Assembly (NCBI GenBank): GCA_018396915.1
Contig: JAGTRD010000006.1
Coordinates: 8,128-46,011 of the forward strand
From: Candidatus Bathyarchaeota archaeon
GTDB taxonomy: Archaea; Thermoproteota; Bathyarchaeia; 40CM-2-53-6; RBG-13-38-9
DNA: 37,884 nt
Direction: 5' to 3'
The position numbers were made by a program, and so were the translations under genes. Below the pieces are notes generated by a model that was not told where the DNA came from, ran no database searches, and saw only the letters and a list, made by a program, of their open reading frames with translations. Shown in pieces: positions 1,452 to 7,752 of this stretch (positions are counted from its first letter, which is position 1; each line of letters opens with the position of its first letter).

Positions 1452-2012
1452 ATGATGTTGCCTTGCAGGGTTATCTTTGTAACTGGACCCCCAGGGATCG
1501 GTAAGACCACGCTCGTTATGAAGGTCGCCGAATACGTAAACTCTCGGGGATACGGGGTCGGAGGGATTGTGACTGAAGAATTGAGGGATGGGGGTATGAG
1601 GGTTGGATTCAGAATGATAGATCTCCACACCGGAGCTACAGGTATACTCTCACATGTCAATCTTAAGGAGGGCCCAAGATTAGGGAGATATGTGATCAAC
1701 ATCAAGGATCTGGAGTCTATGGGTGTTAAGGCTTTGATGGATGGTTTGAAGAAGCATGAAGTCAGGCTTCTAGTTCTTGATGAGATAGGTCCGATGGAGC
1801 TCCATAGCCGTAGATTCATCTCAGCGGCGATGCAGGCTGCCGCATGTGGCAAACCTTTTCTTGGAACAGTCCAGCTCAAACTTTCAAGCAAAGTAAGTGA
1901 AATCTTAGGTTTGAATGAACCCTTTGAAGTTGTCGAGTTGACCAGGGAGAACAGGGTGAGGCAGACAAAAATTATCTCGGATAGGATGCTCAAAATTATA
2001 GAGGAATCTTAG
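1452..2012 (+). CDS. THEP1-type nucleoside-triphosphatase
   Basis: A P-loop NTPase of the THEP1 (NTPase_1) family of about 186 residues, the usual length. The Walker A motif GPPGIGKTT is near residues 11-19, and Walker B with the family's DEIGPMEL signature is near residues 109-116. Members hydrolyse NTPs, GTP and ATP included; the physiological role is unsettled. GGAGG lies at 1444-1448, spaced 3 nt from ATG 1452 and 6 nt from ATG 1455, so the second Met may be the real start. The gene is divergent from trm1 and 53 bases upstream of RNase HII on the same strand, so the two may share a transcript. Confidence in the family is high. Confidence 0.88.
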   Translation: MMLPCRVIFVTGPPGIGKTTLVMKVAEYVNSRGYGVGGIVTEELRDGGMRVGFRMIDLHTGATGILSHVNLKEGPRLGRYVINIKDLESMGVKALMDGLKKHEVRLLVLDEIGPMELHSRRFISAAMQAAACGKPFLGTVQLKLSSKVSEILGLNEPFEVVELTRENRVRQTKIISDRMLKIIEES

Positions 2013-2053
2013 AAGCCGAATCTTTAATGCAATCTACAATGTTTAGTGTTTGA

Positions 2054-2062
2054 GGGGTGATC
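2054..2062 (+). promoter_or_regulatory. Ribosome-binding site for an AUA start (RNase HII)
   Basis: GGGGTGATC is close to the full anti-16S match GGAGGTGATC. It is followed after 3 nt by ATA (2066-2068). In-frame TGA at 2063-2065 rules out any earlier start, so this site effectively fixes the start of the first RNase HII exon. Confidence 0.6.
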
Positions 2063-2065
2063 TGA

Positions 2066-2731
2066 ATAGTAAGGGTTGCTGGAGTGGATGAGGCTGGGAG
2101 AAAGCTCTGAAGCTTCCCATGAGGCCCCTTGATAGGTCCACTCGTAATAGCTGGTCTGGTGATGAGGGAGGAGAATGTTGAGAATCTCACCAGAATAGGT
2201 GTTCGAGACTCAAAATCCCTATCTGGAAAAGTGAGGGCCACCATAGCTTCAAAGATAGTTGAGTTGGCGGAGGAGCATGCCCTGGTTGAGATTCAACCCC
2301 AAGAGGTAGATTCCATAGTCATGAGGGGTAGACCTATGATGAGGCTCAACTGGTTGGAGGCCAAGTATTTCAGCAGGATCTTAGAGCGGCTGGGTCCTGA
2401 AGTTGCATATGTTGATGCGCCGGATAGAAGCCCTGAAAGGTTTGCCTGCCAAATACTGCTGAACCTCAACATTCCATTGAGGATCATCGCTGAGCATAGG
2501 GCTGACGTGAAGTATCCAATAGTATCAGCCGCATCGATCCTCGCCAAGGTTAGGAGAGACACAGTCATATCTGAGCTTAAGAGGCTGTATGGAGATTTCG
2601 GTTCAGGCTACCCTTCAGACCCTAAGACAGTGAATTTTCTACGTGAATGGATGCTTAAGAATAGGGGTGACCTCCCGATATTGAGGAGATCATGGAGTAC
2701 ATTCAGAAGAGTCGAGGCGGAATTATTTTAA
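2066..2731 (+). CDS. rnhB: Ribonuclease HII, interrupted by a 21-nt mini-intron
   Basis: RNase HII cleaves the RNA strand of RNA-DNA hybrids and single ribonucleotides in DNA. The downstream reading frame (from TTG 2129) has IGPLVIAG, RDSKSLS, YVDAPDRSPERF and HRADVKYPIVSAAS, so two of the four catalytic acids are present there. The other two lie in the DEAGR motif, encoded at 2087-2101 in the same frame but cut off by 21 bases (2102-2122) holding two TGA stops. Removing those 21 bases gives the exact family sequence DEAGRGPLIGPLVIAG. No ATG, GTG or TTG precedes DEAGR in a usable place. An ATA at 2066-2068 follows a strong ribosome-binding site (GGGGTGATC, 2054-2062) and gives a normal N-terminus. 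Its 3' end overlaps convergent UPF0216 by 9 bases. Without removal of the insert, the product would lack catalytic residues. Confidence 0.85.
2102..2122 (+). other. Candidate 21-nt bulge-helix-bulge intron inside the RNase HII coding region
   Basis: The RNA around the insert folds as outer helix GGCU (2092-2095) with GGCC (2123-2126), then a central 4-bp helix GGGA (2096-2099) with UCCC (2115-2118), then inner helix AGCU (2103-2106) with AGCU (2111-2114) closed by a CUGA loop. A 3-nt bulge GAA (2100-2102) lies on the 5' strand and a 4-nt bulge AUGA (2119-2122) on the 3' strand. This is the bulge-helix-bulge shape cut by archaeal tRNA-splicing endonuclease. Cutting inside the two bulges and joining the ends restores DEAGRGP in frame. 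The one-base ambiguity (A2101 or A2122) gives the same product. The insert itself encodes two in-frame UGA codons. Confidence 0.75.
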
Positions 2732-7007: not shown

Positions 7008-7752
7008 CTACCACCATCTTAGACTATATTTATACTCAGAGATACGCTCTTCATTAGATGGTTTCCTGAATATGTAGAGGTGCTCGTGCGCAATCTTATA
7101 GAAATCGTAGTACCGACCACGCCACTTTTCTCTTGTGGTCTTGGTCTTATGCTGGAGTTTGATTATATCCTCCTTCAGAACGAAACCAGCTTCTAGAAAT
7201 TTGTTTAGAGCTCCTATATGTATGGGAACGTAATGTCGATGTTTTCGAGTATCGCCAATCAAAATACCGCAATACTTATCGGGCTTAAGAATTCTAAAAC
7301 ATTCTCTCGCAACTTTACCGATCTCTACTAGGAAATCTTCAAATTTCATAGCGGAGAGATCGCCTGGAAACTGAGATTTCGAGTATGTAACTATGCCACA
7401 ATAAGGAGGGTGCGTAGCCACAAGGTCAATAGTCTGGTCATCGATATTATCCAGTCTTCGGGCATCACCCTGGTATATTCGTATGTGGGGCTCCCTGTAT
7501 TTCGGGTCAATCGGAACATATCTGTAGTCTATTCATCGCAATCATTACAGCATTAGAATTAATATCTACACCTATGCCATCTCTGCCCAGCAGTTTACAC
7601 TCAACCAATGTTGTACCGCTGCTCATCATAGGGTCGCAGACAACCTCTCCCGGTTTGGTATACCTGTCTATCAGGTTTCTAGGTATGTACGGACTCCAGT
7701 TACCACGATAATTGCCTATATGTGTCGCCCAGTCACCTCTATCTGGAAAAAG
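7008..7752 (-). pseudogene. Frameshifted DNA methyltransferase (N4/N6 type) remnant
   Basis: Two reading frames together encode most of an amino-methyltransferase. The upstream piece (7752-7507) has THIGNYRGNWSPYIPRN and the SAM-binding motif CDPMMSSGTTLVE followed by GIGVDI. The downstream piece (7535-7008) has the catalytic motif THPPYCGIVTYS (motif IV), ILIGDTRKHRHYVP and a conserved end. Motif I precedes motif IV. The frames join by a one-base slip near 7525-7535, and a second slip is needed in a T-run near 7747 to keep the conserved start. The N-terminus is missing where a glyoxalase-like remnant begins. Such enzymes usually belong to restriction-modification or phage-like units. It is probably inactive, though an assembly error at the first slip cannot be excluded. 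Confidence 0.7.

Follow-up and report, generated by a model that had tools for sequence, protein, structure and literature searches.

A cbf5 pre-mRNA intron of Crenarchaeota was reportedly described by Watanabe in 2002. The cbf5 intron is a bulge-helix-bulge (BHB) intron within a protein-coding gene, occurring patchily in two crenarchaeal orders and frequently with relaxed motifs (Yokobori 2009, PMC2738675), and has been ascribed to a hetero-oligomeric splicing endonuclease (EndA) with relaxed specificity (PMC2738675). According to a 2020 study on Haloferax EndA, no additional BHB intron other than this one had been reported in archaea (PMC7714728). Archaeal tRNA introns, in turn, measure 11–175 nt (PMC2738675), and the rudivirus SIRV1 has putative introns of 12 bp, the splicing of which was never shown (Peng 2004, cited in PMC2738675).

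The rnhB insert described here is like the cbf5 intron in that a BHB motif is patchily present in a coding gene, but the gene is a different one (i.e., rnhB, PF01351) and, rather than relaxed motifs in two crenarchaeal orders, a single codon is interrupted with canonical 3-4-3 geometry by 19–39 nt in several lineages, including Asgard and DPANN archaea. It shares its geometry and presumed machinery with the BHB introns of archaeal tRNAs, and its size falls within their range; however, it is located in an mRNA and its central helix is made of the codons of a catalytic motif. The SIRV1 inserts are likewise very short and situated in archaeal coding genes but differ in their 12-bp size, while the BHB in the 5′ untranslated region (5′UTR) of HVO_1309 (Haloferax, PMC7714728) is an EndA substrate in an mRNA, as predicted here, but lies in the leader and not in the coding sequence. 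BHB introns in mRNA (essentially that of cbf5) are known, and it is the recurrence at the same site of rnhB across several archaeal lineages that is new. Neither the rnhB intron, nor its presence in Asgard and DPANN archaea, nor its fixed site was found in the open literature that was searched.

The window (i.e., the whole stretch of 37,884 nt that was analyzed) belongs to a Bathyarchaeia genome of 1.63 Mb and 96% completeness (further referred to as G000), with the class assigned on the basis of named relatives. Translation of window positions 2066–2731 yielded a complete RNase HII, apart from two UGA codons that interrupt its frame (i.e., IVRVAGVDEAGR-KL(stop)SFP(stop)-GPLIGPLVIAG...), with a 21-nt interruption right after DEAGR, which is the same reading of a broken DEAGRGP loop as in the original prediction. 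The claim that the insert is exactly 21 nt long and that its removal recreates the conserved protein was borne out as well: the spliced form matched the Pfam family RNase_HII (PF01351) as a single domain with 138 bits (positions 5–205), versus 111 bits for exon 2 alone, and all four acidic catalytic positions were present in it. The catalytic Asp and Glu, said to lie upstream of the insert, are indeed both encoded in exon 1 (Table 1), and a second intact rnhB gene, which had been named as counter-evidence, was not found in G000. Elsewhere in the window, on the minus strand at 7008–7752, the reading frame of a gene resembling DNA methyltransferases (CDPMMSSGTTLVECKLLG ... THPPY) changes near 7507–7532; as judged by eye, this is a simple frameshift and not a BHB insert.

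Table 1. Features of the rnhB locus, in window coordinates.
Feature	Position	Strand	Remarks
Upstream ORF of 186 aa, probable NTPase	1452–2012	+	ORF list; function from P-loop motif GPPGIGKTT only
Shine-Dalgarno-like GAGGGGTGATC	2052–2062	+	Sequence; putative role from complementarity to the archaeal 16S 3′ end
Presumed start codon AUA	2066–2068	+	Putative start function
rnhB exon 1	2066–2100	+	IVRVAGVDEAG, then AG as the start of the Arg codon; encodes Asp and Glu, the first two acidic residues of the active site
UGGG, 5′ strand of the central BHB helix (4 bp)	2095–2098	+	Exonic: last base of the Ala codon plus the Gly codon
5′ bulge AGA	2099–2101	+	Predicted cut after 2100 (AG^A)
Predicted 21-nt BHB intron AAAGCUCUGAAGCUUCCCAUG	2101–2121	+	
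Inner stem-loop AAGCU-CUGA-AGCUU	2102–2115	+	5 bp, 4-nt loop
CCCA, 3′ strand of the central helix	2116–2119	+	Intronic
3′ bulge UGA	2120–2122	+	Predicted cut after 2121 (UG^A); A2122 would complete the Arg codon as its third base
rnhB exon 2	2122–2731	+	A plus GPLIGPLVIAG... to the stop; remainder of RNase HII, including both further catalytic Asp

Read in order, the layout in G000 is UGGG-AGA-AAGCU-CUGA-AGCUU-CCCA-UGA, in which a 4-bp helix has a 3-nt bulge on either side, at each exon-intron border, as is typical of archaeal BHB introns, and the exons of the predicted splice product join as AG/A GGC CCC (slash, junction). The large ribozyme core of group I or group II introns is absent from an insert of only 21 nt, and an Rfam search of the window gave no match.

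Aligning the rnhB genes of relatives, a check that had been proposed from the outset, revealed that the insert is not unique to this genome. Inserts at the same rnhB nucleotide, differing in sequence and length, were found in at least 67 archaeal genomes, i.e., 13 Bathyarchaeia, 2 Nitrososphaeria, 35 Lokiarchaeia, 1 Hodarchaeaceae, and 16 DPANN archaea of one class, with the counts outside Lokiarchaeia being lower bounds since only candidates among the matches listed were parsed from DNA. When the order (38 genomes) was searched with the spliced protein, all matches in family f1 and those in f3 and f6 started just past the loop, and in the corresponding DNA exon 1 ended with GAxGAxGCTGGGAG or similar, followed by a differing insert and then GGN CCN. 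The insert was present in all seven f1 genomes in which rnhB was found, and a survey of the Bathyarchaeia class (257 genomes) yielded further candidates in f18 and f21 that were confirmed from DNA. Moreover, a scan of named genomes revealed inserts at this site in Lokiarchaeota and in one record each of Nitrososphaerales, Hodarchaeaceae, and Woesearchaeota, and surveys found them in 35 of the 76 Lokiarchaeia genomes with an rnhB match, at least 2 of 235 Nitrososphaeria genomes, and at least 16 of 261 genomes of the DPANN class (a tally of parsed inserts only). Across Thermoproteota the intron is rare, with a pattern match in 17 of 398 genomes and true introns in three of these (G000, G022, and G211). 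Many DPANN matches have in-frame stops, the interpretation of which as introns was mostly rejected; the insert-free loci that were checked have an intact DEAGRGP, and we take the in-frame stops of insert-free matches to be terminal stop codons.

Over 65 distinct genes, insert lengths ranged from 19 to 39 nt and were not multiples of three in 26 cases. The 21-nt insert had originally been regarded as unusually short, a view that did not hold, as 19-nt cases exist among its relatives and tRNA introns start from 11 nt (PMC2738675). One same-site insert (L328 in G790), with an irregular border (CCGGAAATGAG...CTCACCGCAGGGGGTCC) and outside the canonical register, was left out of the set. Related rnhB genes with clean empty sites exist, and a gene tree (217 rows, built with a quick method) required at least 28 presence/absence changes, of which 12 were forced by well-supported branches, versus 54 for shuffled labels. 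Intron presence is thus clustered yet changed many times, and these changes are gains or losses that the tree does not tell apart. As to the gene itself, no RNase HII match was obtained in G030, G033, G013, G006, G011, G008, and G039 (from the same order and class; G033 and G013 being at least 95% complete), and rnhB may have been lost in parts of the order. The order-mates L023 and L024 (family f4) have rnhB ORFs of 432–447 aa with no intron at the DEAGR site, and show an intein-like insert at FG/SLP...ILHN/SGYPSD (slashes, insert borders) in the conserved C-terminal active-site region.

The intron-bearing genes share a common parse, consisting of N-GG-N (the last base of an Ala or Ser codon plus the Gly codon), AGN, a hairpin, the complementary 4 nt, 3 nt ending in a purine, and GGN. 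This comparison also decided on the register of the helix. The original prediction had placed the intron at 2102–2122, which is one of three equivalent placements of the 21-nt gap, and comparative data shift it to 2101–2121. The originally drawn helix (GGGA/UCCC, with bulges GAA and AUGA) turned out to be one base off and was rejected, as all four of its pairs form in 7 of the 28 introns outside Lokiarchaeia versus 25 of the 28 for UGGG/CCCA with bulges AGA/UGA (shuffle mean 6.1, maximum 15). By energy alone, both registers are approximately 1 kcal/mol apart, and folding of the single window sequence was no better than that of shuffles (z = 0.2), so that the fold alone is not convincing and the comparison with relatives carries the case. 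In G000, the outer helix (formed between the exons) is weak, and among the 65 cases the BHB form is the exact energy minimum in a minority and within 1 kcal/mol of it in 28.

Clear covariation was found within this common parse, with the first and fourth helix pairs occurring as UA, CG, AU, GC, UG, and GU combinations. Outer helix pairs were kept in 111 of 118 instances, as compared to 61.1 ± 4.8 after shuffling, and none of 10,000 shuffles scored as high; this count includes L025 and L026 (with true inserts of 20 nt) in misparsed form, which as counted work against the result. These shuffles ignore relatedness, and the set from outside Lokiarchaeia spans several archaeal lineages. Inner stems averaged 4.4 uninterrupted bp versus 0.7 when shuffled. 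In the Lokiarchaeia alignment, 87.4% of the cells were paired and 10 of the 13 pairs had changes on both sides, with pairing falling to 31–39% in a control in which the partners were slid by one to three columns.

By sequence, D(E/D)xGRG is recovered with the canonical cut in 65/65 genes, apart from a Gly-to-Trp change in one of them. In seven genes, the 5′ bulge ends in U or C, which, if counted as exon, would replace the conserved Arg by Ser in six and encode Arg in the seventh (CGU). The 3′ bulge contributes a purine (A or G) to the codon in every one of the 65 genes, and no cuts other than AG^N and NN^R are consistent with this pattern. Judged from the sequences, purifying selection acts on the exons (median pairwise dN/dS of 0.22 between intron-bearing genes, maximum 0.71), and the acidic catalytic positions are Asp or Glu throughout the set wherever the sequence covers them. 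The Gly-to-Trp gene (L003 in G034) has TGG for the loop Gly codon and one broken central pair, which likely reflects gene decay or an error in the assembly. Many intron-bearing genes have Ser, Cys, or Ala (GS, GC, GA) in place of the Pro that follows GRG.

In G000 rnhB, the stretch from the preceding in-frame stop to the conserved first strand contains no ATG, GTG, or TTG, and the AUA at 2066 is located three bases past the Shine-Dalgarno-like GAGGGGTGATC. These three codons were absent from the upstream open frame in 9 of the 65 intron-bearing genes versus none of 208 intact rnhB genes (one further intact gene, whose frame runs off its contig, stands outside the 208). All nine are from Bathyarchaeia and one Nitrososphaerales and have AUA, AUC, or ACG in place (among them window 2066–2068, L003, L004, L005, L021, L101, and L135). 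Inspection by eye gave no sign of a second, upstream intron supplying a start codon. Initiation at AUA, AUC, or ACG would be non-canonical, and perhaps lets splicing precede translation.

With regard to the machinery, G000 has two splicing-endonuclease genes (PF01974), of which the catalytic-type subunit displays the Tyr/His/Lys signature (IKFGADFAVY...DHAPFI...VRKQF) and the second, non-catalytic-type one does not. Such a pair would be as expected for an EndA of the (alpha-beta)2 type with broad specificity, the breadth of which has been documented (PMC7714728). The genome also encodes an RtcB RNA ligase (PF01139, E-value of 7.9e-176), and many of its tRNA genes have introns, some apparently more than one (L140, L143–L145, L149–L152). 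A splicing endonuclease was present in all seven intron-bearing genomes tested from outside Bathyarchaeia, with two genes in the Lokiarchaeia and Nitrososphaerales records, and one each in the Hodarchaeaceae and Woesearchaeota records.

The originally predicted BHB mini-intron is supported by the same-site inserts, the covarying helices, the exact recovery of the protein, the selective constraint on the exons, and the co-occurrence of both EndA subunits and RtcB, and the rnhB insert is very probably an mRNA intron spliced by EndA and RtcB. In the transcript, the exonic UGGG would pair with the intronic CCCA to leave the bulges AGA and UGA, behind the second base of either of which the heteromeric splicing endonuclease of the host would cut. 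RtcB or another RNA ligase would then join AG to A, restoring DEAGR-GP and an active RNase HII, while on unspliced mRNA ribosomes would hit a UGA three codons into the insert, so that the enzyme could not be made. We infer cutting and joining in the cell, as well as the identity of the ligase and any regulatory effect.

Short hairpin inserts with stop codons that are precisely removed at the protein level would also fit programmed translational bypassing, as in phage T4 gene 60 and the mitochondrial byps, and ribosomes might similarly hop the rnhB insert via its hairpin. Bypassing, however, needs matching take-off and landing codons, and the triplet before exon 2 (UGA, AAG, AAA, ACA, AUG, UAA...) rarely resembles the take-off AGA. 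Moreover, genes with AGU or AGC as take-off codon would yield Ser instead of the conserved Arg, the inserts vary from 19 to 39 nt, and the covarying 4-bp helix spans the exon border in exact BHB geometry, all of which makes bypassing highly unlikely. Somewhat less probable still is that EndA cuts the BHB without the exons being joined, as a regulatory mRNA-decay switch. Haloferax EndA does cut BHB sites in the HVO_1309 5′UTR (PMC7714728), but the exact restoration of the frame is kept in every lineage, which would be pointless unless exons are joined, and G000 has no other rnhB copy to rely on.

Metagenome-assembled data and two in-frame stops could in themselves point to a decayed gene, a sequencing or assembly error, or a random insertion, yet the same nucleotide is affected in at least 67 genomes from many projects, with covariation, low dN/dS, and retained catalytic residues, and this explanation is therefore considered negligible. 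An equally slight chance is given to exon 1 being unused, with translation starting at TTG 2129 and the insert forming part of an untranslated leader. A 200-aa ORF does start from this TTG and exon 1 lacks a canonical start codon, but the resulting protein would lose its first strand and both N-terminal catalytic acidic residues, while the conserved residues are encoded by exon 1 in 65/65 genes and most relatives have a canonical start inside exon 1.

For a spliced BHB intron, we tentatively consider a broader scenario, which we hold to be possible though rather doubtful, in which the AG/R GGN junction in the GRG loop of rnhB would be a privileged BHB-intron site across Archaea, either ancient and often lost or often re-invaded. 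In some TACK lineages, this site would be combined with AUA, AUC, or ACG starts that may delay ribosomes so that EndA can act on the helix approximately 30 nt downstream, turning splicing into a control point of RNase HII.

In practice, gene callers will truncate or frameshift rnhB, a conserved genome-maintenance gene, in the groups concerned. A fixed position combined with a free sequence and length allows direct tests of intron gain, intron loss, and EndA specificity, and the cultivation of some Lokiarchaeia may be far enough within reach for splicing tests. With the rnhB intron present in at least 67 sampled genomes, and in close to half of the Lokiarchaeia in which the gene was matched, tRNA-type splicing of coding genes, Asgard archaea included, would be much wider than thought.
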